This document shows, one piece after another, positions 5,452-20,861 of a stretch of DNA of 21,579 nucleotides. The stretch covers positions 1 through 21,579 of IMG/VR virus record IMGVR_UViG_3300042197_003282; one strand, written 5' to 3'. Source of the DNA: a virus. The position numbers were made by a program, and so were the translations under genes. Within the stretch, counting starts at the first letter, position 1. Each line of letters starts with the position of its first letter. The notes beneath the pieces were generated by a model that had not been told where the DNA came from, ran no database searches, and was given only the letters and a program-made list of their open reading frames with translations.

Positions 5452-6261
5452 TTAAAAATGAAGTGACATATATTTCTTGTAAAAAAAACTGATCAATTCT
5501 GGAGAAAAATCTGTTAGACTAAAGTTTTCGTAGAGATTTTTCATCGAGTTTAAAAATGCCTCTGTATCAAAGTAGCTTTGGTCTACATCATATATTATAA
5601 CTTGATTCTGTATTAAATGTACACGATAAAATTGTCCAATTTCTTCAACTATGCTTTGATCCAATGCATCAAACTCGGTTACATCATAGCCATGCCGTTG
5701 GAATTCTTCCCAATCAGGCCAGCTTGAACCTCGCAACATGTTGTATTTTTCCACACAATAGTCTCGGCATAACCTAGGGGGGTTGTGCCTAGGAGGATCT
5801 GGTTGTTTTTTACGCAAGCATATGTCTTGGAACTTGCGAGAATTTATCAAACGAACCACTGTGGCGTTTGGCCAAACCTGGCATAAACTAAGTGGTTCCA
5901 TGGTATGATCGGTTATCAAAAAACGCATCGTTGAATAACATAATTTTTTCGTTATGTCGTTGAGGTTGCCCTTGATACCTTGGGGCCAGGCGTTCCAGTA
6001 AATGTCTTCACCATAAAGTTGTCCATCCCCGTGTTCAAAGTTACGCCAGAGATGCATCTTATCGCGCGGTGGTAAGGTCTTTAACACAATCTGTAATCTA
6101 TAGTCATAATCTGTGGGATTTTTTAACAAATGTTCAGCTGCCACGGGATCTTGGGGACAAAAATCTTTACTGAGTGATAAGCAGTTGCCTAAGAATTTAC
6201 CACCTGAAAATGGCAGAAACGACATGATCACGGCGTTTGTTGAATTAAAGCTATCAATCAT
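5452..6261 (-). CDS. Unknown protein, copy B of a duplicated family; sulfotransferase-like N-terminal loop
   Basis: 269 aa, a clear paralog of the protein at 7967-8782: well over half of aligned residues look identical. Shared landmarks are NAVIMSFLPFxGGxFLGNC near the N-terminus, LSLSKDFCPQ, a MHLW segment, NATVVRLINSR in the middle, WPDWExFQRHGYD, and VIIYDVDQSYFD before the C-terminal LFYKKYxSLHx. The N-terminal beta-strand/Gly-loop/helix, followed by the NATVVRLINSR strand, recalls the PAPS-binding loop and 3'-phosphate site of sulfotransferases. I cannot confirm a sulfotransferase fold from the sequence alone. The gene is AT-rich compared with flanking regions. A sigma70-like promoter lies about 55 nt upstream of its ATG. 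Context suggests a role in modifying surface carbohydrate. Confidence 0.85.
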   Translation of the reverse strand: MIDSFNSTNAVIMSFLPFSGGKFLGNCLSLSKDFCPQDPVAAEHLLKNPTDYDYRLQIVLKTLPPRDKMHLWRNFEHGDGQLYGEDIYWNAWPQGIKGNLNDITKKLCYSTMRFLITDHTMEPLSLCQVWPNATVVRLINSRKFQDICLRKKQPDPPRHNPPRLCRDYCVEKYNMLRGSSWPDWEEFQRHGYDVTEFDALDQSIVEEIGQFYRVHLIQNQVIIYDVDQSYFDTEAFLNSMKNLYENFSLTDFSPELISFFYKKYMSLHF

Positions 6262-7966: not shown

Positions 7967-8782
7967 TTACAAATGCAGAGATATATATTTCTTATAGAAC
8001 AAACTGATCAAGTCACGAGAAAAATCTGTCAGACCAAAGCTTTCATAAAGACTTTTCACCGATGTTAAAAATGCATCAATGTCAAAATAGCTTTGATCTA
8101 CATCATAAATTATGACTCGATTTTGCAATGTATGGCAACGATAATGTTGCCCAATTTCGTTGATAGTATCCTGGTATAACGCCCCGCATTTGGTCGCATC
8201 ATAGCCATGCCGTTGGAATACTTCCCAATCGGGCCAATTTGGGCCTCGTAATCTGTTGTATTTTTCCAGCATGTAGTTTCCGTTGAAGTACAATGGGTCG
8301 TCGGTTCGAACTGTTACATCAGCTGGTTCTTTTTTATCCAACGATATACTTTGGAAATTGCGAGAATTTATCAAGCGAACCACCGTGGCGTTTGACCAAA
8401 CCTTGCATAAACCAAACGGTTCCATTGAGTGGTCATTCAACAAAAAACGCATGCCTGACGCACATATTTGCCTTGTGATGTCGTTGGGTTGTTTATTGGA
8501 GCCTGCTATCCATAAGTGAAAACAACCTCGGCCATAAAGGTGTTGATCTTTGTTCTCAAAATACTGCCAAAGATGCATCTGATCTGGCGGTGGCAAGGTT
8601 TTTAAAACCGTTACTAATCTATAGTCATAGTCTGTGGGTTTTTTCAAAAGATATTCAGCTGCAATCGAATTTTGCGGACAAAAATCTTTGCTGAGTGATA
8701 AGCAATTGCCTAAAAATCTTCCCCCGGCAAATGGCAGGAAGCTCATGATCACTGCATTATTGGAACTCCAGACATCCATCAT
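7967..8782 (-). CDS. Unknown protein, copy A of a duplicated family; sulfotransferase-like N-terminal loop
   Basis: 271 aa, paralog of the protein at 5452-6261, with the same order of conserved blocks: NAVIMSFLPFAGGRFLGNC, LSLSKDFCPQ, TDYDYRL, NATVVRLINSR, NWPDWEVFQRHGYD, VIIYDVDQSYFD and a C-terminal LFYKKYISLHL. The least conserved part is residues about 155-180, where the two copies differ almost completely, suggesting a specificity loop. The ATG at 8782 overlaps the stop of the 316-aa gene (ATGA). Function is unknown; a nucleotide- or PAPS-binding transferase is a reasonable guess from the Gly-rich first loop. The two copies bracket the pair of SGNH-like genes, so the unit A-SGNH-SGNH-B may have arisen by duplication. 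Confidence 0.85.
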   Translation of the reverse strand: MMDVWSSNNAVIMSFLPFAGGRFLGNCLSLSKDFCPQNSIAAEYLLKKPTDYDYRLVTVLKTLPPPDQMHLWQYFENKDQHLYGRGCFHLWIAGSNKQPNDITRQICASGMRFLLNDHSMEPFGLCKVWSNATVVRLINSRNFQSISLDKKEPADVTVRTDDPLYFNGNYMLEKYNRLRGPNWPDWEVFQRHGYDATKCGALYQDTINEIGQHYRCHTLQNRVIIYDVDQSYFDIDAFLTSVKSLYESFGLTDFSRDLISLFYKKYISLHL

Positions 8783-9729
8783 TGCTGTTGGTAATAATTG
8801 ATATACTTGCCACTAAAATAATGATCGTGATTATGTTCAATAGTGTCGTATTCCATTTCATACAAATCACGCCGATCATCAGAGCTCAGCACAGAAAATT
8901 TTGAGATCATCGATATTAGCTCTACCAATCTCTCTACGGGATTCACTATGGCATCAAAACTATAATCAAATATACGATTGTACTGACGGAAACCCCAATA
9001 GCGTTCAAGGTGATCATGCCAGCCAGGCTGCGCATAGGCCAAAAACAAACCTCGCGTGACCACGCTGTATAAAAACTTTTCTGTGACGAAAGGATGATAG
9101 CTGGTGGCTAGGGTTTCGCTCACTAGATGCAGAAAACTCTTGGTGAGCTGGTGCTGGAGACCGTAGATGTTCTGGGCATGATTATATTGCACATGTCCAA
9201 AGCTATAGATACGGTTGAAAAATTCTTGGCTGTCAGCGCCTATGAAAAATCGTTTATAAAATCTGTGTCGATCGAGATCCAGATAGTCGCCAAGATGCCC
9301 ATCAAGTTCATCTGTGGTGTATCGAAAGTTTTTGCTACAAGTCTCTGGATCAAAATACCCCCATCTTTGAAGCGCTGACACCAACAGCTTTCTGCTGACA
9401 TGTGGAGACCCGTTGAAACTGCAGAGAAAATTCTTGTATTCTAGTTCAGGATGATATCGATAGTCAACAAACGAATCGAACAACTTTCGGGTGCTATCAT
9501 CCCATGTGCGGAAAAAATCAAGATTAGGGTAGAATTTTTGTACAGAGTCGGTAATTATCCCAGCATAATGTATTTGTATCTTTCGACGTCGTTCATAACA
9601 ATATCGATCTATTTGTGTCAATAATGGATTATGATAGCGTTGATCAAATCCACCTATGTGGTCAACGAGGCAGATCTGATCCGGTAATTCTTCGGGTATG
9701 CCAAGCGCAGATATGCAGAGCGTCAACAT
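8779..9729 (-). CDS. Putative glycosyltransferase (GT10/fucosyltransferase-like C-terminus)
   Basis: 316 aa. Residues about 99-130 read NFLCSFNGSPHVSRKLLVSAL, the kind of 'short conserved strand, then Arg, then helix' seen in uncharacterised phage glycosyltransferases. The second half has SFLHLVSETLATSYHPFVTEKFLYSVVTRGLFLAYAQPGWHDHL followed by YWGFRQYNRIFDYSFD and NPVERLVEL, which follows the GT10-like pattern 'VSET...TEK...PG....L...GF..F....D......ER'. (The long segment is split here as LVSET, FVTEK, AQPGW and GFRQYN.) The usual Lys-rich nucleotide contact TEKTFKPI is changed to TEKFLYSV, so donor binding may differ. The ATG at 9729 overlaps the amidinotransferase stop by 7 nt; a late-type box lies 46 nt upstream. 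The fold is a moderate-confidence call. Confidence 0.7.
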   Translation of the reverse strand: MLTLCISALGIPEELPDQICLVDHIGGFDQRYHNPLLTQIDRYCYERRRKIQIHYAGIITDSVQKFYPNLDFFRTWDDSTRKLFDSFVDYRYHPELEYKNFLCSFNGSPHVSRKLLVSALQRWGYFDPETCSKNFRYTTDELDGHLGDYLDLDRHRFYKRFFIGADSQEFFNRIYSFGHVQYNHAQNIYGLQHQLTKSFLHLVSETLATSYHPFVTEKFLYSVVTRGLFLAYAQPGWHDHLERYWGFRQYNRIFDYSFDAIVNPVERLVELISMISKFSVLSSDDRRDLYEMEYDTIEHNHDHYFSGKYINYYQQQ

Positions 9730-10859
9730 CGGTCGAGATCATTAGTAACGCAGTGTATACCACAATCCCAAAAATATTTATGACGAAACGGACTTACATG
9801 TACCGTGATTCCATGTCTAGCACAGGCTCGTTCTACTTGTTCGTTGTAAGTGCTGACTATGATATTTTTTGGATCTACGATGAGTATGTTCACGTCAAAC
9901 ACAGTTTCGCTGACCTGGCCCACCCATTCATCAAAGTAATAATCAACCGAATGTTGTAGATCAAGATCATGCTCGAAGCCCGGTATAAACCAACGGCCTT
10001 TGTTGCGTTTCATGGAAAATTCAAACTCTCGCATGTGAGCATAGTTGCTGGGTGGCAAATATATTACTTCCCAGCCCGGAAAGGTGTCGGCGTAGGTAGG
10101 CACATCATTTAGACTGATTATGAGTCCAGGAGTAACCGGGCAATACACTGAATCTCCATGCCCACCTGCATTGACGACCCGATTCTGAGTATCGGGAAAT
10201 AAGTCATTGACTTGGTCAAGTATGGATTGTTTATCGTCGTAATAGGTCTGTGTGGCGAAATATAATTTCTCACCGATCCGGCTTACAAAACATCCATTGA
10301 TAAAATCAAGATCTGTGTACACAACATCACTGCCACTGTGTTTGATCTCATCAAAAACATGGGAATAAAATTTCAGTTTGGCATCAAGATGTTGTTGATC
10401 TTTGTTTTGGAATATGCTAAATTTTTCTTTGATGTCTTGGGAATATTCTGGCCATGATTCATAAAAGTCAGCGGGCCTAACATAATCCGGCCACCATGAT
10501 TGTTTGTTCTGTCTATAAAATACCGACCAAGCATGGCTGGCATTGGGCACCCGGGGAACCCAAAACTTGTTTCGAATCATGACAAAATAATCTCTAGGCG
10601 CTGTTGGTGGTTGCACCCATTTGCCATCTATATAGAGATCATCGAAGTCATTGGGAAACTCAGGACGCAAAACTCTAACACCAAATTGATTTTGCAATAA
10701 TGCTATGAGGTTTTGATAATCTTCCTCGGTTTCCATGGCCATTTTTTCAAAACGGCTTCTGGTCTTGGGATTCTTGATCCAATGATAAAATTCTGGCGGA
10801 TAGGTTTTTCCTACCAGACAAACTTTTAGTGGGTCCCAGTGTTGATAGACGGAATACAT
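9723..10859 (-). CDS. Amidinotransferase / dimethylargininase-superfamily enzyme
   Basis: 378 aa, the usual length of glycine or inosamine-phosphate amidinotransferases. The family forms a five-bladed beta-propeller with a catalytic Cys, His and acidic residue. Visible here are TAPRDYFVMIRNKF (residues 86-99) near the start, VYTDLDFINGC (about 180-190) with candidate acids D183/D185, NAGGHGDSVYCPVTPGLIIS with catalytic His234, and FWDCGIHCVTNDLDR with the catalytic Cys370 close to the C-terminus. These enzymes move an amidino group from arginine to an amine. The neighbouring sugar genes suggest a guanidino-modified amino sugar as product, but free amino acid substrates are equally possible. 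The gene begins just after the gp32 terminator, with only a weak ribosome-binding site. Confidence 0.85.
   Translation of the reverse strand: MYSVYQHWDPLKVCLVGKTYPPEFYHWIKNPKTRSRFEKMAMETEEDYQNLIALLQNQFGVRVLRPEFPNDFDDLYIDGKWVQPPTAPRDYFVMIRNKFWVPRVPNASHAWSVFYRQNKQSWWPDYVRPADFYESWPEYSQDIKEKFSIFQNKDQQHLDAKLKFYSHVFDEIKHSGSDVVYTDLDFINGCFVSRIGEKLYFATQTYYDDKQSILDQVNDLFPDTQNRVVNAGGHGDSVYCPVTPGLIISLNDVPTYADTFPGWEVIYLPPSNYAHMREFEFSMKRNKGRWFIPGFEHDLDLQHSVDYYFDEWVGQVSETVFDVNILIVDPKNIIVSTYNEQVERACARHGITVHVSPFRHKYFWDCGIHCVTNDLDRC
9775..9782 (-). promoter_or_regulatory. T4-type late promoter box CATAAATA inside the amidinotransferase gene
   Basis: CATAAATA on the minus strand, within the last 60 nt of the amidinotransferase gene and 45 nt before the ATG of the 316-aa gene. 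If used, the message would have a leader of about 40 nt. Being inside coding sequence, it is the least certain of the six boxes. Confidence 0.35.
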
Positions 10860-12007: not shown

Positions 12008-13378
12008 TTAAATTTTTGCCAAATAGCGCAGGCGGTCTATGCTTTCGCTGCTCATGTTGCTCTGCTTGGTCATCATGACACCGTCGGTGTCGAGATTTTC
12101 CGGAAGGTCATTGGTGATGGTGCGATCCATGATGCCACCGCCGGTGGGTGCGCCTTGAAGGCTTTCCTGAGTGCGACGTACCAGGCCGCGCATGCGACGC
12201 AACACAGATTTGTTTTTCCAGATATTGATGTCGGGATCTCGTGCTGCCAGGCGATCAAACATGGCAAACAGTTGCGGATCGGGTAGTATGTCCGATAAAG
12301 CCTGTTTGGCGTTTATCGCGTCGGGGCCAACCAGCAGGGGAGACTGCATGAGATTGTGTAGCTTCTTGCGCTGTCCCATGGTCATGCCTTGGGCGTTTTC
12401 CGACACTGAATCTACCCAATTGCTGAACTCGTTGAGTTCGTTGCTGGCTGCAGCCACGGTCATGGGAGCCATGCGAGCCAGAATAGGCAGAGCTTCTTCT
12501 ATCCTGTGATCCACTCGCTTTTCGGTAAAGATATCGCGTATTTCATCAACTATGAGTTCGTGACCGTGTATGGTCATGGGATCAAACGACTTGAGCTCTT
12601 GCATGTAGCCCGAATGCCCACTCATGCGCTTGACACGTTCCTTTAACTGGCGATGATGTTGCTGTGCTGCAGACACCATAGCATTGCCTTGCTCACCAAA
12701 ATCCTTGCCGCGTGATGCTCTCAGAAATCTGGACAGCGTGGCCAGTTCGGTCATGAGTTGATTCACATGCACGCCAAAAGCATCGTAGGGATTGCCGCCT
12801 TCCTTGACATGTCGTGCTAGGATACGTCCATGCGTGAGACTGCGGCTAGGCACGCGGAATCTTTCGCCCGAATCGGTTTCCACAAACAGGCTTTCGATAC
12901 AGCGATAGCGTGGCTCACCTTCAGACAAGGGCCTGCGATGCTTGATCATGAGCCGGGTCTGGCGCGGTGGTCCATTGTAGCTGACATCCCGGCGTCCGCG
13001 GAAGCTCTCAAACAGGCTTTCGCTCAGGGCAGCTATGCCCTGCAGATTGTATTTGAGTTGGCTGATGTCTTTGAGATCGAATTTTTTGAAATCGTTGCGG
13101 GTGCTGAAATTTTTCAGCTGTTCTAGGAACTCATACCAGCGTTTGCGGTCTTCGCTTTCCATGCCGCGTCCCAGGTTATCGCCGTAGTACACAGCCATGC
13201 TGCGGTCCGCACCCAGCATTATGACCACGCTGCCGTAGTTTTGATTTTCGGTGCGCCAATCAAATTTGAACATGATGGCCTTGTCCGGGCTGCTGGGCTT
13301 GTAGTTCTTGTCCAGTGCCTCGGGCTCAAGATTTCGAGTCACCAAGATGTTAAAAAGCTGCTGGGATTGGTTTTGCAT
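12008..13378 (-). CDS. Conserved-looking hypothetical protein between gp17 and gp32
   Basis: 456 aa that I do not recognise from T4. The N-terminal third mixes strands and turns (FKFDWRTENQNYGSVVIMLGADRSMAVYYGD, here abbreviated to FDWRTEN...SVVIMLG...VYYGD), with IKHRRPLSEGEPRYRCIESLFVE around residue 150-175. The middle and C-terminal two thirds are predicted to be mostly helical and charged, with RRMRGLVRRTQESLQ near residue 390, and the protein ends SIDRLRYLAKI. No signal peptide, membrane segment or nucleotide-binding loop is visible. Its size and place directly after the packaging motor suggest a head, neck or replication-associated role. The ATG at 13378 has no Shine-Dalgarno; a GCTAAATA box ends 5 nt before it. 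Confidence 0.85.
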   Translation of the reverse strand: MQNQSQQLFNILVTRNLEPEALDKNYKPSSPDKAIMFKFDWRTENQNYGSVVIMLGADRSMAVYYGDNLGRGMESEDRKRWYEFLEQLKNFSTRNDFKKFDLKDISQLKYNLQGIAALSESLFESFRGRRDVSYNGPPRQTRLMIKHRRPLSEGEPRYRCIESLFVETDSGERFRVPSRSLTHGRILARHVKEGGNPYDAFGVHVNQLMTELATLSRFLRASRGKDFGEQGNAMVSAAQQHHRQLKERVKRMSGHSGYMQELKSFDPMTIHGHELIVDEIRDIFTEKRVDHRIEEALPILARMAPMTVAAASNELNEFSNWVDSVSENAQGMTMGQRKKLHNLMQSPLLVGPDAINAKQALSDILPDPQLFAMFDRLAARDPDINIWKNKSVLRRMRGLVRRTQESLQGAPTGGGIMDRTITNDLPENLDTDGVMMTKQSNMSSESIDRLRYLAKI

Positions 13379-13396: not shown

Positions 13397-14962
13397 TCAA
13401 CTGTTCATGACCATGACAAACGGTAGGGGTTCTATCATTGTATCGCCGTGATCGCGCATGCGAGAGTCAAGATCGCTGTGATAGCTCTGCAATACCTGCA
13501 GCATGCGCACCACCAGCAGCGTGGCCATGACTAGGTCATCGGTTTCCCCGGGCTTGGCAGCGTAGCCTGCGCCCGATGCCACGAAGTTTTTGAGTTCGCT
13601 GACCAAGGGTGCGCTGTTTATTATCATTTTGGCGCTTTCCACTAGATGTTTAAGCTTGGCACAGGCAGCCAATTTGGGTTTGTTGGTGGTGTTGAATCCT
13701 TTGCGACGGCTCTTGACCGCACCGGGTTCGCTGAGAAAATATCCCTGGATGTTTTCTTCGCCTAGCTCAGCGATGCTGATCAGGGCAGCTTCGCCTATGG
13801 TGTTGTTTTCTACGGTGTAATAAATGTTTTTAGGATCTTTCACGGTTTCGTTGATGTGCGATATGATGGCCTGCAGCGTGCGTATTTGTGTGGGTATGTC
13901 AGTACGGTTATGTCGCCACTCTGCGACTTGAGTGCAGGTATTGGCTTCAAACACTTCTATGGCAGCAGGGTCTCCACCAGTGCCCAGGCTGGGATCCAAG
14001 GCCACGCAGTAGATGCGATCTCGTTGTGGACGCTGGTACCAGCGCACTTCGCCGGTCTTGTAGAGGACCTGCTGGGATTCCAGATCCATGAGCTTGGTGG
14101 GTGCGATCAAAGTCTCGTCTGCGGTCACGAACTCACAGTCCATCTCACGTCGGAAGCGGTCCACGCCCAGGGCCGCGCGTTGTTGCTGTGCCCATGTTTC
14201 GTCACGATCAGGATGTTCGTGCCAAAAACTGCGGAATGCACGGAAGCCATTCTGTCCCACTTCAGTGGGATTACCATATTCATCCACGCAACGATTGGCA
14301 CCTTTCCACAGCATGGCAAACTGATCTTCGTCTGAGTTTGGTGTTGATGTGATGATGGCCTTACCACCCGTGGCCAGCGTGGGTGATATCGAAGTCCAAA
14401 ATTCCACAGCTATGGTGGGCCTCACAAACGCAAATTCGTCTGCATACAACAGCGATATACTCATACCACGACCAGTGTTTTCAGTTGTGGTAGCCGACAC
14501 TATGCGGCTGCCATTGTCAAATGTGATGCTGCCTTTGTTGTAATCCACAGCACCTGCGCGTATGTGATCCGGTACTGACTCGTAGCCATATCGGATACGC
14601 TGCATTATTTCTTGAGACCCTGTGTATTTGTGTGCTGCCACCAGTATGGTGCTGTCGGGCACAAACATAGCATACCACAAGAGATAACCTGCGGCCGATG
14701 TTGACTTACCGGTCTGTCTAGGCATCATGGATATAACGAATCTATAGTCGTGATAGGTTTCAATCAGTCGGCGCTGATACTCAAAAGGATGATACAACAT
14801 CCTGCCATGTACAGGATGTTGGATGTAAAAAAAGTTGTCCAAAAAATACATGAAACCGGTAACGGGATCGGCACATCGAGCAAACTCTTGTATTTGCTCA
14901 TCGCTGTACATGCTCCTTGAATAGGGAGACTTGATCAGCGCGGGTTCGGTTGATTTGGCCAT
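13397..14962 (-). CDS. 17: Terminase large subunit gp17 (DNA-packaging ATPase/nuclease)
   Basis: 521 aa from the ATG at 14962; a TTG two codons upstream is unlikely. gp17 is the motor that pumps DNA into the prohead and cuts the concatemer at headful. ATPase motifs are Walker A MPRQTGKST (residues 80-88), Walker B LLYADE (171-176) with catalytic Glu176, and the coupling motif TSTPNS (205-210). The C-terminal RNase H-like nuclease shows its three acidic positions: D323 in CVALDPSLGTGGD, E385 in YYTVENNTIGE and D475/D476 in PGETDDLVMATLLV. The length is shorter than T4 gp17 (610 aa), as is usual in T4-like phages of aquatic bacteria. No small terminase gene was recognised in the window. No Shine-Dalgarno is seen; CGTAAATA lies 7 nt before the ATG. 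Confidence 0.96.
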   Translation of the reverse strand: MAKSTEPALIKSPYSRSMYSDEQIQEFARCADPVTGFMYFLDNFFYIQHPVHGRMLYHPFEYQRRLIETYHDYRFVISMMPRQTGKSTSAAGYLLWYAMFVPDSTILVAAHKYTGSQEIMQRIRYGYESVPDHIRAGAVDYNKGSITFDNGSRIVSATTTENTGRGMSISLLYADEFAFVRPTIAVEFWTSISPTLATGGKAIITSTPNSDEDQFAMLWKGANRCVDEYGNPTEVGQNGFRAFRSFWHEHPDRDETWAQQQRAALGVDRFRREMDCEFVTADETLIAPTKLMDLESQQVLYKTGEVRWYQRPQRDRIYCVALDPSLGTGGDPAAIEVFEANTCTQVAEWRHNRTDIPTQIRTLQAIISHINETVKDPKNIYYTVENNTIGEAALISIAELGEENIQGYFLSEPGAVKSRRKGFNTTNKPKLAACAKLKHLVESAKMIINSAPLVSELKNFVASGAGYAAKPGETDDLVMATLLVVRMLQVLQSYHSDLDSRMRDHGDTMIEPLPFVMVMNS

Positions 14963-14969
14963 GACCAAC

Positions 14970-15650: not shown

Positions 15651-16805
15651 TCAGGACACAAAGCCTGGCTTGTAAACTGTTTTACCCTTTTCCATAACAG
15701 CAGTTAATTTTTGCTTACGGTTCGCACCTTCAGCATAACTTGCGTGTACCCAGCCCGAGTTTGGTCCTTCTTTGGGATCATAAAACTCAAGTATGATCTG
15801 ATCAAACTCGCAATTCTCACTAACCCACTTTGCTAGTTCAGGATTGGCAAGTCCGTCAATTTCAAAGTCGACTGCCTGTCCATTGCAATGTTGTGATTTG
15901 CTGGATCCGCCAACAGCGGAATTAAGAGCAGGACCACGATAGCCGCTATTAATACGAACTGGTTTTTGAAAGTGGTTACGAACTGGTTCAAGTATTTTCT
16001 CACAGACTTTTTTGAGATTTGCTGCATGTGCTGGCCCCGGTGTGTTGTCGATTCTTTTTCTAATTGCTGTGTCACTTTTTGTAAATTCATTTAGTTTGAA
16101 ATGTGGGCTAAGTTGCATGTCCGGCGTTACCACCAAAGCAGGAGCTGCTTGTTGTGGTGTTGCTGCCGGCGCTGATGCTTGTGGGGCTGCACCAGCGGTC
16201 CACATGAAATATTTCTTGGTTTTTTCAGTGCGGTCCGCCAGTCCGTGGGTGCCGCCGTTTATCTTTTTGGTCAATGCCAGTATGGCACTGTCCTTGATGC
16301 CTTGATCACAGATGGCCCAAAGTTTGTTTCTTTCAAAGAAAAACATCGCGCTTTCAAATGCAAGCTCAGTGGCCACAATGTCGGGATTGCTCATGACATC
16401 AGGACGATTACAATACTTTGCAAAGGCAGCGTAATTGTCTTTGCCGGTCAACTGCAGAGCGCCACGACCACGATAGCGCCAACCATCGCCGCTGCTTTCG
16501 GGACCATTGCCCATGCGGTTGGCATAGATTCGATTGGCTATCTTTTGTGGATTGCGTCCATAGGCGTTGGCTTCATTCAACGTGGGAAAATACTTTTTCC
16601 ACATGGACGCCAACGCGGCGGCATTGTAGTTGAGATTCTCACTGAAGGCTTTGAAACCGCCGGTTTCGTGTGCGGTCTGCCCAAAGAAATGCGCAGCTCT
16701 AGCCGGCGACAACTTATAATAGGCCATGGCAGCACGGAATGTGCCAGGTCCCCATGCGCCGTCTGGTGTGACCCCGATCTTGGCCTGTAGGCTTTTTAGG
16801 CTCAT
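15651..16805 (-). CDS. Bifunctional endolysin: GH19 muramidase/chitinase-like plus M15 peptidase
   Basis: 384 aa from the ATG at 16805, which overlaps the holin stop by one base (TGATG). Residues 1 to about 200 are a GH19 lysozyme/chitinase domain: AHETGGF with catalytic Glu47, SENLNY with the second acid (E56), and YRGRGALQLTG in the substrate cleft. Residues about 202-230 are an Ala/Pro/Gln linker. Residues about 233-370 are an M15 zinc peptidase: SGYRGPALNSAVGG, SQHCNGQAVDFEI giving H306 and D313, and WVHASY giving H354. One domain would cut glycan strands and the other the peptide. There is no signal peptide, so release through the adjacent holin is expected. Endolysins with two catalytic domains are uncommon in phages of Gram-negative hosts. 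Confidence 0.94.
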   Translation of the reverse strand: MSLKSLQAKIGVTPDGAWGPGTFRAAMAYYKLSPARAAHFFGQTAHETGGFKAFSENLNYNAAALASMWKKYFPTLNEANAYGRNPQKIANRIYANRMGNGPESSGDGWRYRGRGALQLTGKDNYAAFAKYCNRPDVMSNPDIVATELAFESAMFFFERNKLWAICDQGIKDSAILALTKKINGGTHGLADRTEKTKKYFMWTAGAAPQASAPAATPQQAAPALVVTPDMQLSPHFKLNEFTKSDTAIRKRIDNTPGPAHAANLKKVCEKILEPVRNHFQKPVRINSGYRGPALNSAVGGSSKSQHCNGQAVDFEIDGLANPELAKWVSENCEFDQIILEFYDPKEGPNSGWVHASYAEGANRKQKLTAVMEKGKTVYKPGFVS

Positions 16806-17119
16806 CAAGCGATCTCGTCTTCGTCCAGCTCCATGGGCTCTTTGGCTGGTCCTAGCTCAGGCTCTTCTTTCTTTTCTGGTGCTTCATTGCTCTTGCCCAA
16901 CATGATACCCGACAATATGCCAGTCAAGAATGTTGCTATGGGTGTAATAAGTTTAAAGAATTCTGCATCATTGGGTGACTGATAACCAATGGGCTGGGTT
17001 ACAAATATCAAGGAATACAAAATCACAAAAACGATGCCTACTAAGCAAAATGCCAAGGCTAATCCAATCGTGACTTTCATTCTCACCATCAATTCTGCTT
17101 CGGTATATTTTTGTGACAT
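16805..17119 (-). CDS. Probable holin, two transmembrane segments
   Basis: 104 aa. Two hydrophobic segments are visible: about residues 16-40 (VTIGLALAFCLVGIVFVIL and following) and about 56-75 (LITPIATFLTGILSGIMLG). They are followed by a long charged tail rich in Glu, Pro and Lys ending MELDEDEIA. Both termini would be cytoplasmic, the class II holin arrangement. Its stop overlaps the endolysin start, and it has a Shine-Dalgarno (AGAGG). Holins have little sequence conservation, so the call rests on size, topology and position immediately before the lysin. An alternative is a general membrane protein of the lysis cassette. Confidence 0.8.
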   Translation of the reverse strand: MSQKYTEAELMVRMKVTIGLALAFCLVGIVFVILYSLIFVTQPIGYQSPNDAEFFKLITPIATFLTGILSGIMLGKSNEAPEKKEEPELGPAKEPMELDEDEIA

Positions 17120-17129
17120 AAAAAACCTC

Positions 17130-17588
17130 TTATCTCGTGGCAGCGTTGTGTGCTGCTGTGTCTACCACTGTGTTCATGGTCAGTGGCTGCTCTTCTGATT
17201 GCGCAGCATCGTCAATGATTTCGGTATCTACATCCCCAGTATCTGGCTTGGGCGACTGTATGATATAGTTTTTGACCCCAAATTTTCTGGGTTCTTCGCC
17301 CTTGCCCGAATACATAGAGACCTCAGCAGCAGCCGGCACACACTCTGTATTGTTTATCTCCGTTTGCTCCAATGCCTCAGAGTTTTCTTCCGAGCTTGGG
17401 ATCTCTGCGTCTTCAAGCGTGCCGGACTTGGCCAACACTGCTGCGGTGCAGGTTCCTTCGGCCTTGCATACTTCATTGTTGCATTCAATTTTGCCCCAAT
17501 TCGCAGGATCTTGACAAGGATAGCGGTAATGGCCTTCGCATGCAGTTAAAAAAAACACCAGCGGTGCTAATAGCAATGTGTTTCTCAT
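17130..17588 (-). CDS. Predicted outer-membrane lipoprotein in the lysis cassette
   Basis: 152 aa from the ATG at 17588, chosen because GGAGAGAAG lies directly before it; an upstream TTG (17606) would hide that site inside the gene. Residues 1-17 are a lipoprotein signal with lipobox LTAC (Cys17). Glu at the next position, rather than Asp, predicts sorting to the outer membrane. The mature N-terminus has five more Cys in HYRYPCQDPANWGKIEC, VCKAEGTC and later TEC, suggesting disulfides in the periplasm. The remainder is acidic and low-complexity. I recall HYRYPCQDP-type lipoproteins in aquatic T4-like phages, function unknown. There is no C-terminal membrane helix, so it is not a unimolecular spanin; it could be one spanin subunit, an exclusion protein or a lysis regulator. 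Confidence 0.85.
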   Translation of the reverse strand: MRNTLLLAPLVFFLTACEGHYRYPCQDPANWGKIECNNEVCKAEGTCTAAVLAKSGTLEDAEIPSSEENSEALEQTEINNTECVPAAAEVSMYSGKGEEPRKFGVKNYIIQSPKPDTGDVDTEIIDDAAQSEEQPLTMNTVVDTAAHNAATR

Positions 17589-17602
17589 TCTTCTCTCCCA
17601 GT

Positions 17603-18238
17603 TCAAACTTGTACCACAGTGACTATGACGCTGGGCACCACGGGGCCTGGGCCTTCACTGGCTAGTGCCACGATATCAATCCCCGCAAAACTACTCCACC
17701 AGGCCAACTTTACATAGTCACCGGCTGCCAGGGGCTCCACGTAGTTCCAGCCAACAACTAATTTGTTATTGTTGCCCACAAAAGTTGTCACTCCACCGGA
17801 ATCTGGCACAGTGTTGCCATTTTTTTCCAGCCATATCTCCATGTTGTGTGTGCCGCCGCCAGTTTGTAGGAATTGTGCGCTGAATTGGATGTCATAAACA
17901 CCAGCAAAATCCACGGTGATTTCGTCGCCGTTGACTATACTGACATGATTGTTGCTAGAGGTTGTGCCCAACTGCATGTAGTTGACATTGCCTGTATCGT
18001 TGTTTTGACTGGTGGTGTCATAGAATGACCCGTAGAACTTTGTAGCATTGGCATTGGCCAGCAAAACCAGATTGCCGTTATTGTCACCAGCATACAAGTT
18101 GAGGTTGTTTTGTTCTACCACCAATTCAGCAGGTCTTGCCGTGCCGTCATACTGCTGCGCAGAGATCTGTGCGTTGTCCTTCATGGCCGCGCGGCTGATA
18201 CCAGTGATGTTTGAATATGGTGGTGGAGGAATTGCCAT
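17603..18238 (-). CDS. Virion protein with TNF/C1q-like beta-sandwich
   Basis: 211 aa. The start MAIPPPPYSNITGISRAAMKD resembles N-termini of small phage virion proteins (and the 49-aa neighbour). Residues about 65-211 are rich in Asn, Thr, Gly and hydrophobic strands: NYMQLGTTSSNN, EITVDFAGVYDIQFSAQFLQ, HNMEIWLEKNGN, VVGWNYVEPLAAGDYVKLAWW and VVPSVIVTVVQV. This alternating pattern, especially 'GVYDIQFSAQF...MEIWLEKNG...LAAGDYVKLAWW', is typical of C1q/TNF-like jelly-roll domains in phage tail or capsid-decoration proteins. It may form trimers on the virion surface and bind host glycans. No Shine-Dalgarno is visible; the upstream gene ends 12 nt before. Confidence 0.8.
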   Translation of the reverse strand: MAIPPPPYSNITGISRAAMKDNAQISAQQYDGTARPAELVVEQNNLNLYAGDNNGNLVLLANANATKFYGSFYDTTSQNNDTGNVNYMQLGTTSSNNHVSIVNGDEITVDFAGVYDIQFSAQFLQTGGGTHNMEIWLEKNGNTVPDSGGVTTFVGNNNKLVVGWNYVEPLAAGDYVKLAWWSSFAGIDIVALASEGPGPVVPSVIVTVVQV

Positions 18239-18441: not shown

Positions 18442-18828
18442 CTATCTGGGGTAGCCCTTGAAAGGTCGAACCACGCTGTTGACGTTGGTATCAGAAGGCT
18501 CTTGGCTTTCATTATCAGGATTGGGCTTGAGAACATCGTCCCACTCCACTCCTGCGGCCTTATATGCGTGTTTGAGCATGTTGGCTTCTACTTTGCTGTA
18601 GGGGTGAGCTGTGTTGTTTTTGTTAAACCATGACTCAGGACCCAGCTTGGGAACATTTTCACCATCGGCCATGGCAGCGGCCATCATGACACGATTTAAA
18701 TCATAATGACGATCTTGTGTGCCTCCAACCCTGTGCGCACTCGGCATAGTTTCTATGTGATCACGGTGTATGGCGCCACGCTGTTTGGCCGTGCTCACTG
18801 ACTCAAGCACAAATTCCCGGGCTCTCAT
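18442..18828 (-). CDS. Putative internal head protein, paralog 2 (capsid-targeting-like N-terminus)
   Basis: 128 aa. The N-terminus MRAREFVLE-S matches the T4 capsid-targeting sequence pattern (MKTYQEFIAE-A), with a VLE-S site that fits the general form of sites cut by the gp21 prohead protease. The body has a YDLNRVMMAAAMADG helix, a SWFNKNNTAHPYSKVE segment, MLKHAYKAAGV, and ends DTNVNSVVRPFKGYPR. The 122-aa protein directly upstream has the same layout and end, so the two are tandem paralogs. The start overlaps the upstream stop (ATGA). In T4 such internal proteins are packaged in the head and injected with the DNA; that this protein is packaged is inference. Similar proteins occur, as I recall, in other aquatic T4-like phages. 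Confidence 0.82.
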   Translation of the reverse strand: MRAREFVLESVSTAKQRGAIHRDHIETMPSAHRVGGTQDRHYDLNRVMMAAAMADGENVPKLGPESWFNKNNTAHPYSKVEANMLKHAYKAAGVEWDDVLKPNPDNESQEPSDTNVNSVVRPFKGYPR

Positions 18829-19193
18829 TTTTCGTAGCCCCGAAAGGCCACCACAGGACTTTGCTTGTTGGTATCTTTGGGCTCGTGACTGCCCGGCGAT
18901 GTGAGATTGGTACCGCGTATGCCCAGCTCACGAAAAGCCTGTGTAATTTTTTCACGATCTATGTCTGTGTAGGCACCAAAATACGCTCGATTGTTTAGCC
19001 AGCTGGCGGCGTCCACAGGTTCAAATGTGGCAGGGGCTCGTCCCATTAGCATGCCAGCACGATACATGTCGTAGTAACGATCCATGTCGATGCCTGTGAT
19101 AGCACCGGGATTGGCGCGATCGTAGTGATCAGGGAGCTCGCCGTCGGGTCTTGACTTGCGCGCGGATTCGGTGATAAAGTCTGTAGCCTTCAT
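18825..19193 (-). CDS. Putative internal head protein, paralog 1 (capsid-targeting-like N-terminus)
   Basis: 122 aa. MKATDFITE-S at the N-terminus closely follows the T4 capsid-targeting pattern and contains an I-x-E cleavage site as used by T4 gp21. The body parallels the downstream 128-aa protein: RYYDMYRAGMLMGR against RHYDLNRVMMAAAM, ASWLNNRAYFGAYTD against ESWFNKNNTAHPYS, and EPKDTNKQSPVVAFRGYEK against EPSDTNVNSVVRPFKGYPR. Divergence is considerable, so the duplication is old or diversifying. It is mostly helical and charged, with no cysteine. The biochemical role is unknown. Confidence 0.82.
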   Translation of the reverse strand: MKATDFITESARKSRPDGELPDHYDRANPGAITGIDMDRYYDMYRAGMLMGRAPATFEPVDAASWLNNRAYFGAYTDIDREKITQAFRELGIRGTNLTSPGSHEPKDTNKQSPVVAFRGYEK

Positions 19194-19208
19194 GCTGCTA
19201 CCAACGGA

Positions 19209-19508
19209 TCAGCGCAGTATTACAGCATTATTGGCGCTTTGTACGCCGAGCTGACCAGAACTGCGTGTGCCTATTTCTTGTGCTGTGTAGTTGCTGCCCG
19301 AGATAGTGATCTTGTTACCTACACCCACATAGACATCCTGCAGACTTTGTGGAGGTATCTGCGATGCCGCGGAAAATAAGTTGCCTGCGGCACTGGGGTA
19401 GATAAGGTTGACATTGTAAGTCACAGCCGTGGCGCCGGTGCTGATCCTGCACTTGTCAGTGTACCAGGTTTGGTCCGATACCGTGGTGTATACGTTTGCT
19501 TGTGCCAT
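19209..19508 (-). CDS. Small beta-rich structural-like protein
   Basis: 99 aa. The composition is Ala, Ser, Thr, Val and Asn with alternating hydrophobic residues (TAVTYNVNLIYPSAAGN, QDVYVGVGNKITISGSNYTAQEIG) and no catalytic-looking motif, typical of small virion decoration or tail-associated proteins of T4-like phages. It starts MAQANVYTTVSDQTWYTD and ends GVQSANNAVILR. A good Shine-Dalgarno (GAGG) precedes the ATG 12 nt after the end of the 446-aa gene. The exact position in the particle cannot be told. Confidence 0.75.
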   Translation of the reverse strand: MAQANVYTTVSDQTWYTDKCRISTGATAVTYNVNLIYPSAAGNLFSAASQIPPQSLQDVYVGVGNKITISGSNYTAQEIGTRSSGQLGVQSANNAVILR

Positions 19509-19520
19509 GTGTTTACCTCA

Positions 19521-20861
19521 TTACCATTTGCGACAGCTCCAGTAGCGTGCCTTGGTTCTTGGTCCCGGATTGTCGCAGTTGTGTCTAGCACGAAAGCTCT
19601 TGCGACGCGCAGGATTAGACTTCTTGATGCGCATGGTTTTGTCGCCAAAGTTTACTTTCTTGACATTGCCAGTCTTGGGATCCCGGACGTAGACCTTGAA
19701 TTTCTTGACATCTCCCTGCATGGGCTTGCCCAGGGGAACATCGCGACCTTGATATTCGGCTTCATCTAAATCATCAAAGCGTTTGTCATCTGCATCCTGA
19801 TCAGGTTCTACAGGTTCGTCACCTGAACCGGCTTCAGACATTTTGTTGTGTGACGCCAGCTCTTGTTCTACTCGGCGAACCCAAGCCGAAACATCACTGC
19901 TGCCAATTTCTTCCACCTTGCCCACCGAGCTGGCCACGTGATCAACAGCATCGCCTACGCGCTCGGGACCATACTTGCTCAACAGGTCGGTGCGCTGAGA
20001 GATGATCCTACGCACTATGGCCTGAGCCACGGGAGACTCCGCTTCGTTGAGATCACCTTCAAAGGCCTTGGCTGCTGCTGATCCTGGCTCCGCAGGCACC
20101 GAACTCTGTGGTTCAGCAGCCACGCTGCCTTGCTGCGGCATGGGTTCTTCCTCTGTGGGATCTTCCATGATGCCAGCATGGCGACGCAGTTTTGATAATT
20201 CGTATTCTTCCGCTGTGGTTTGTTTGTTGTCCTTGGGAGGTTTGTCGCCAGGGCGTATCTTTCTTTGTGCTGCTGGTGTTGCGGGATCGCCGGGTGCGCG
20301 GAACTTTGTTGCTGCGCTGGCTGATCCCATGCTTTTCTCGTACTCGGCCTTGCGCTGATGTGCTGGCCGGTCGATGTCTCGGCCCATCCATGGTGCAGCT
20401 TCCACCACATTGGCCAGCTGTTTCAAGCGCTCAAGTAAGTCATCTGCCTCCATGGCAGGCACAGCAGCATCGTCAATGGCCTTGCTCAACAAGGGATCAT
20501 TGTGATTGGCATCGGGAGGAGTGGGTAGTTCTTCGGCCAGGGCACCTTGTCCACCCACTTGACCGTTTTCGATGCGATCCAAGTGGTCACCGGGACCCAT
20601 GTCAGCATCTTCGTTCTGTGAGTATCCCATGCCAGGGCTGTTGCCCACGGCACCGTAGCGTTGTATGGCTTCCAGCTGGAAACCCTCCAGTTGCAGCAAG
20701 GCATCTGCTTGTGCATCGCTTTCAATCACCACGCCATCTTCAAGTATTTCTACTATGGTGGATTCCACTAACTCGCCGTCGTCGGATTCAAAAACGAATC
20801 CATCGCCCACCTGCGGTTGATCGGTCTCGACTTCTGTGAGATACTGTGTGAATTTTTTCAT
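19521..20861 (-). CDS. Virion-associated or packaged protein with conserved Cys/Trp C-terminal domain
   Basis: 446 aa. MKKFTQYLTE-V at the N-terminus aligns residue by residue with the T4 capsid-targeting sequence. Residues about 15-60 form a small acidic beta domain (VGDGFVFESDDGELVES, GVVIESDAQADALLQLEGFQLE). Residues 80-380 are low-complexity, acidic and Pro/Ala-rich, likely disordered, with an LSKLRRHAGI motif (222-231) and a helical domain near 272-340. Residues 384-446 form a basic domain: VKKVNFGDKTMRIKK, RRKSFRARHNCDNPGP and KARYWSCRKW with two conserved-looking Cys and Trp residues. I recall this module at the C-termini of several proteins of uncultured aquatic phages. Its start overlaps the upstream stop (ATGA). 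Function is unknown. Confidence 0.85.
   Translation of the reverse strand: MKKFTQYLTEVETDQPQVGDGFVFESDDGELVESTIVEILEDGVVIESDAQADALLQLEGFQLEAIQRYGAVGNSPGMGYSQNEDADMGPGDHLDRIENGQVGGQGALAEELPTPPDANHNDPLLSKAIDDAAVPAMEADDLLERLKQLANVVEAAPWMGRDIDRPAHQRKAEYEKSMGSASAATKFRAPGDPATPAAQRKIRPGDKPPKDNKQTTAEEYELSKLRRHAGIMEDPTEEEPMPQQGSVAAEPQSSVPAEPGSAAAKAFEGDLNEAESPVAQAIVRRIISQRTDLLSKYGPERVGDAVDHVASSVGKVEEIGSSDVSAWVRRVEQELASHNKMSEAGSGDEPVEPDQDADDKRFDDLDEAEYQGRDVPLGKPMQGDVKKFKVYVRDPKTGNVKKVNFGDKTMRIKKSNPARRKSFRARHNCDNPGPRTKARYWSCRKW

Follow-up and report, generated by a model that had tools for sequence, protein, structure and literature searches.

Three closely spaced genes in a 21.6-kb virus fragment encode proteins that begin much like the internal proteins of phage T4, which raises the question of whether they are sent into the phage head and trimmed there. 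The whole fragment, hereafter the window, was analyzed, and 28 genes are called in it (Table 1). An earlier reading of this DNA, made from its sequence only, gave the ORF positions and N-termini of the three genes correctly; the start codons are backed by homologs beginning at the same Met, and the 446- and 128-aa ORFs have start/stop overlaps with their upstream genes. The same reading described a cassette of near neighbors, and the three leader genes do lie close together, but a 99-aa gene without a leader interrupts them (its counterpart, of 96 aa, takes the equivalent position in two relatives, G003 and G004). We regard it as fairly probable that the products of these genes reside inside the head of a large T4-type phage, with leaders that would target them there and would be cut by an S77 protease; sequence conservation and co-occurrence are observed, and from these we infer packaging, cleavage, and a position in the core.

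Table 1. Leader-bearing genes of the window, their parts, and neighboring features.
Feature	Position	Strand	Basis
456-aa protein like phrog_13484, virion structural protein	12008..13378	-	E 2.1e-11
Terminase large subunit (gp17)	13397..14968	-	Sequence matches
128-aa protein, predicted leader MRAREFVLE/S10	18442..18828	-	ORF, homologs
Predicted leader of 128-aa protein	18802..18828	-	ORF, family alignment
122-aa protein, predicted leader MKATDFITE/S10, paralog of 128-aa protein	18825..19193	-	ORF, alignment
Predicted leader of 122-aa protein	19167..19193	-	ORF, family alignment
99-aa protein without leader, between 446-aa and 122-aa genes	19209..19508	-	ORF list
446-aa protein: leader 1-10, acidic 11-367, basic C-terminal domain 368-446 (phrog_7595)	19521..20861	-	ORF and profile match
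Basic 79-aa domain (AEYQGR...SCRKW and stop), predicted release at LDE/A368	19521..19760	-	Junction in homologs
Leader MKKFTQYLTE of 446-aa protein, predicted cut LTE/V11	20832..20861	-	T4 IPIII register
235-aa part of larger protein, truncated by contig end	20858..21565	-	Frame open to contig end; no leader seen

The window terminase is of the T4 type (52% identity to the terminase of Pseudomonas phage PA5oct), and its sequence puts the window among large phages of the T4 type, close to PA5oct, Phosso, and Atu_ph07. Of two further T4-type genes, gp32 has a weak match, and UvsX was assigned by eye and from a RecA-like protein in the equivalent position in Phosso. The 235-aa piece aligns over residues 59-234 with a 617-aa protein of G003 (35.7% identity, E 1.6e-26). 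Gene order in both G003 and G004 is tail sheath, tube, a 202-aa protein, a 617/618-aa protein, the 446-type protein, the 96-aa protein, and the 122/128 pair; terminase, gp32, and UvsX come next in G003, as in the window, and G004 stops before those genes. The 202-aa gene is a fourth leader gene in these two relatives. No S77 (gp21-type) protease was found in the window, which is a fragment, but one is present in each of three contigs with genes of the 122/128 family, G001, G003, and G004; since the larger relatives with shared gene order have S77, the fragmentary state of the window would explain the missing protease. The sequence-only reading had proposed a search for the N-terminal motif and a gp21-like protease in the rest of the genome, and both are carried by the relatives, whereas the window has neither a further leader gene nor S77.

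Other window genes include a lysin (15651-17606; matches to Peptidase_M15_3 and GH19); genes for a small membrane protein and a lipoprotein-like protein are transcribed ahead of it, and the three may form a lysis group. Two similar proteins of 269 and 271 aa (5452-6261 and 7967-8782; MSFLPFxGGxFLGNCLSLSKDFCPQ) are encoded in a low-GC part, and a 378-aa protein (9723-10859) is by eye amidinotransferase-like.

In T4, the first 10 residues of the internal protein IPIII are enough for packaging, with targeting dependent on residues 4 and 7 and cutting on residues 8 and 10, and the protease gp21 cuts after L/I-x-E (PMC9026906). Targeting without cutting has been reported for IPIII with Asp at residue 10, and a review of T4 head assembly regards the capsid-targeting sequence as maybe a general head-loading route in T4-like phages (PMC9026906). 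The leader of the 446-aa protein has F4/Y7 where IPIII (MKTYQEFIAE) has Y4/F7, and thus carries both targeting residues (aromatic 4, F/Y 7); it fits at positions 4, 7, 8, and 10, and has in common with the leaders of IPI, IPII, and IPIII its length of 10 residues, K2, aromatic 4, Y/F7, aliphatic 8, and E10. The leaders of the 122- and 128-aa proteins are 9-mers in which F6 corresponds to residue 7 and Ala3 stands where T4 has aromatic 4, and they fit T4 positions 7, 8 (Val in the 128-aa protein), and 10. The site that ends the leader is of the L/I-x-E form in the 446- and 122-aa proteins (LTE and ITE); the VLE of the 128-aa protein is a relaxed form that occurs in 9 of 58 family members. The T4 likeness claimed earlier for all three holds at all four positions for the 446-aa protein and partially for the other two, whose Ala and, in the 128-aa protein, VLE count against the leader interpretation. 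Small orphan bodies follow the leader in the 122/128 pair, as in the T4 internal proteins, although the window bodies are unrelated to those of T4 and packaging here is predicted. The starts of T4 gp24 (MAKINELLRE/S) and Alt (MELITELFDE) are likewise short and contain Glu, similar to MKINEIIxE in relatives, but these are other proteins with other locations in the head. In sum, the leader genes described here would be a variation on the T4 internal-protein system, and not a separate kind.

The strict leader pattern, ^M[KR]x(0-3)x[EQKDTNSRH][FYILV][ILVM]xE, was written after the peptides had been seen, and in the window it occurs in 3 of 28 genes, exactly those of the 446-, 122-, and 128-aa proteins, and at none of 121 internal methionines; 0.04 matches are expected by chance (residues 2-15 shuffled). 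These rare starts uphold the cluster of leader proteins, but not three independent examples, a count that was dropped: the 122- and 128-aa proteins align as paralogs over their full length (28% identity, E 8e-15), so the window alone provides two independent cases, and the main weight of the leader case lies with the relatives. Among the 268 ORFs of T4, the pattern picks out ipII, ipIII, and gene 61.1 (none of 766 internal methionines). Gene 61.1 (NC_000866, 18966-19130) encodes 54 aa, starts MKTFKEFIKE/D, and is a full pattern match; it is a candidate T4 internal protein, and no paper was found that says so.

Across 129 IMG/VR-derived loci, the pattern occurs at 108 of 1531 gene starts versus 26 of 6879 internal methionines. 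With the three large families set aside, the pattern still marks 30 genes, spread over 21 families, where chance predicts 3.2; among these are a Pol-beta nucleotidyltransferase, a GNAT acetyltransferase, and an NT5C nucleotidase. Genomes and contigs with S77 have the start in 24 of their 1887 genes (3.6 expected), as compared with 0 of 466 genes in seven S77-lacking phages (0.6 expected), in a comparison where the S77-lacking set is small and several S77 genomes were found via the leader families themselves; two phages with S77, HTVC008M and Melnitz-3, have no gene that fits the strict pattern. The co-occurrence is consistent with a cleavable leader, as support and not as proof. A broader pattern was rejected as too loose (71 matches versus 23 expected in S77 genomes, 8 versus 4.7 in S77-lacking ones). 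The MCPs of relatives and of PA5oct have LxE-type sites where expected (YLRE/N, LLAE/S, FLVE/N). It is improbable, in our estimation, that the N-terminal stretch is simply an ordinary first helix or an uncut docking helix that resembles T4 by amphipathic convergence, since many unrelated families bear the same stretch and it is missing in the seven phages that lack S77.

Additional leader-like starts were seen in individual genomes. Near the major capsid gene of G001, a 138-aa leader protein (L133:6037-6453; MKITEIVVE) has Cys, His, and Asp residues that by eye suggest a small papain-type enzyme, with no Pfam match. In Phage C48C1 (L165, 1665-8249), four close genes have MxxFKxYLxE-like leaders; these encode a 407-aa protein (by eye DUF6267-like), a basic 123-aa protein, a 90-aa protein (by eye DUF5824-like), and a phrog_7595 protein. 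Several genes of Flavobacterium phage immuto (L163, L243-L250) have other repeated N-termini, MKKSxLxxLIKEE and MKKQILSEQF(K/R)RMQ.

Three PA5oct genes match the pattern, and two of these (EST35_0150 and EST35_0238) are annotated as virion-found by ESI-MS/MS, which is suggestive only, given that roughly one in five PA5oct genes has an annotation of this kind. The same annotation is found on the syntenic EST35_0202 and EST35_0203. In PA5oct and Phosso, members of the 202-aa family retain F4/Y7 and are missing the Glu, and the PA5oct member is found in virions; this would fit targeting without cutting, by analogy to IPIII with Asp10. Cleavability is thus not universal among these leaders, and the missing Glu also favors the view that the stretch is a first helix. 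Alternatively, the proteins may be structural (neck, tail, or capsid surface), with leaders that steer assembly outside the head interior: in relatives the genes sit between the tail sheath/tube genes and the terminase, and the annotation of the PA5oct homologs is structural only. This is very unlikely, however, as the closest T4 parallels to the leaders are internal proteins, the neighboring 202-aa protein (phrog_14802) is filed under head and packaging, and T4-type cleavage takes place in the prohead (PMC9026906).

The family of the 122- and 128-aa proteins allows the predicted leader to be examined residue by residue. IMG/VR yields 42 relatives of the 128-aa protein, often encoded in tandem pairs, and a single-protein scan with the 122-aa query returned no relative. 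In an alignment of 58 family sequences, residues 1-9 (M[RK]AxEFIxE) are nearly fixed: K/R at position 2 (58/58), E/D at 5 (57/57), I/V/L at 7 (58/58), and E at 9 (57/58), with mostly A at 3, F/I at 6, and variable residues at 4 and 8. From residue 10 on, the alignment is gapped and hypervariable. Such an arrangement, in which the Glu and the aliphatic residue two positions ahead of it are fixed while the intervening residue and the stretch behind are free to vary, would be predicted for a leader that is cut off, and the invariant Glu, the free position 8, and the gaps directly after argue against a first helix. An AlphaFold2 model of the 128-aa protein is of moderate confidence (pLDDT 70); its helix at residues 3-12 favors the first-helix alternative, whereas the low pLDDT of the leader itself (about 60) counts against it.

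The bodies of these proteins were described earlier as uncharacterized; the 122/128 family has no Pfam, PHROG, or PDB-sequence match, and the C-terminus of the 446-aa protein belongs to phrog_7595. Nothing significant was found in the PDB with the 128-aa model, and its sole significant hit in structure comparison is to part of A0A6J7WL65, a cytidyltransferase-like phage protein (BFVD; Foldseek E 5.3e-4, 32% identity), although the window proteins are without the transferase domain. Four longer proteins have the 122/128 domain at their C-terminal end (A0A6J7WL65-type fusions occur in L104/L105), and in two of the four (L107 and L110) MRAxEF is kept inside the chain, where it could be part of the domain fold or an internal cleavage site. 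This retention supports the first-helix alternative and, of all the observations, weighs most against a pure leader. The 122/128 pair stays a candidate internal protein. The interpretation of the N-termini as capsid-targeting leaders, put forward in the sequence-only reading, is supported as a prediction by the conserved leader and hypervariable stretch, the unrelated carriers, the S77 co-occurrence, and the detection in PA5oct virions.

The 446-aa protein appears to have a second site. Its residues 366-446 match phrog_7595 (E 4.8e-12, profile 6-96 of 96); there is no Pfam match, the only other PHROGs match is a weak one to phrog_32953, and no sequence similarity to known core or scaffold families was found in Pfam or PHROGs. 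The charge is -42 over the 357 residues after the leader and +17 over the C-terminal 79. The junction between these regions has the form [LIVM]-x-E/A in 61 of 61 IMG/VR homologs, with varying flanking residues, although the domains are about 83% alike, such that the junction is partly simple conservation and the lineages are not independent. Diverged S77 phages keep the junction form (LEE/A in HTVC008M, LTE/A in C48C1, MME/S in Melnitz-3, LDE/G in immuto), with the exception of G003, where it is TDE/A and off consensus. In ten phages with the phrog_7595 domain and S77 undetected, the acidic extension is absent, and in most of these the protein starts MA(K/T)YxG(R/K), or MA and a few residues, at or near the predicted cut; the domain is thus alone in most S77-lacking phages. 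With G003 excepted, the junction accompanies S77 in the phages compared, and the extension is absent from the ten in which S77 is undetected. An AlphaFold2 model of the basic domain (pLDDT 40) was not used.

In its long acidic region and its nine L/I-x-E sites, the 446-aa protein is like the T4 prohead core proteins gp22, gp67, and gp68; in contrast, no sequence similarity to these was found, and the 446-aa protein adds a basic C-terminal domain. Elsewhere, phrog_7595 occurs alone (HTVC026P, Kolga, CRP-901) or fused to an XkdF protease (CRP-6), whereas here it lies behind an acidic pro-region and a leader. In gp55 of Roseobacter phage CRP-6 (L168:544-1233), the domain is N-terminal to an XkdF-type head protease (Peptidase_S78_2), and proteins of Aeromonas phage 2L372X and Vibrio phage P018-4 align over both the phrog_7595 and protease parts. 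Gene 18 of Melnitz-3 (L164:6336-8288) encodes 650 aa that start MKKFSEIIE/A and include cytidyltransferase, DUF5824, and phrog_7595 domains; hydrophobic-x-Glu sites lie between the domains, and this is possibly a processed polyprotein.

By these features, the 446-aa protein is most likely a head-core pro-protein that is cut twice. The sequence-only reading had counted it among candidate injected effectors, and the junction analysis, together with the protease-linked basic domain in CRP-6, led us to downgrade that role. For the three proteins together, a function as injected anti-defense effectors is compatible with a location inside the head: T4 IPI and IPIII, which have such leaders, counter host defenses (PMC9391042, PMC3012670), the orphan 122/128 family frequently occurs in duplicate, and enzymes are among the leader-bearing genes elsewhere. 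We nevertheless consider it somewhat unlikely, as the 446-aa protein resembles a core component, the 122/128 genes, in the window as in G003 and G004, keep a conserved place beside structural genes and do not behave as variable accessory genes, and nothing points to a host target.

For head-internal proteins of this kind, the first 9-10 residues would bring each precursor into the prohead core, where the phage gp21-type (S77) protease would remove the leader after hydrophobic-x-Glu. In the 446-aa protein, the same protease probably cuts again at LDE/A368; the acidic 357-residue middle would act like the T4 core/scaffold proteins and be degraded or otherwise lost, whereas the basic 79-aa domain would remain in the head with the DNA. 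The 122- and 128-aa proteins would end up in the head in mature forms of 113 and 119 residues, and would possibly be injected with the DNA.

No paper applying the capsid-targeting sequence to large environmental phages was found in the literature searched. With its predicted second site, the 446-aa protein would be an acid/base pro-protein whose maturation in the head can be tested, and this would tie the widespread phrog_7595 domain to head maturation. Because the tag recurs on many unrelated proteins in relatives, it is a practical guide to packaged, and perhaps injected, proteins, and if the leader is real, these could be picked from sequence alone, even in phages that cannot be cultivated. 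The chances are about even, in our judgment, that in large T4-type phages of water environments one short cleavable leader serves as a general address label, trimmed by S77, on many unrelated proteins including enzymes and two-site pro-proteins, and that it would read out the packaged, possibly injected, set for each phage.
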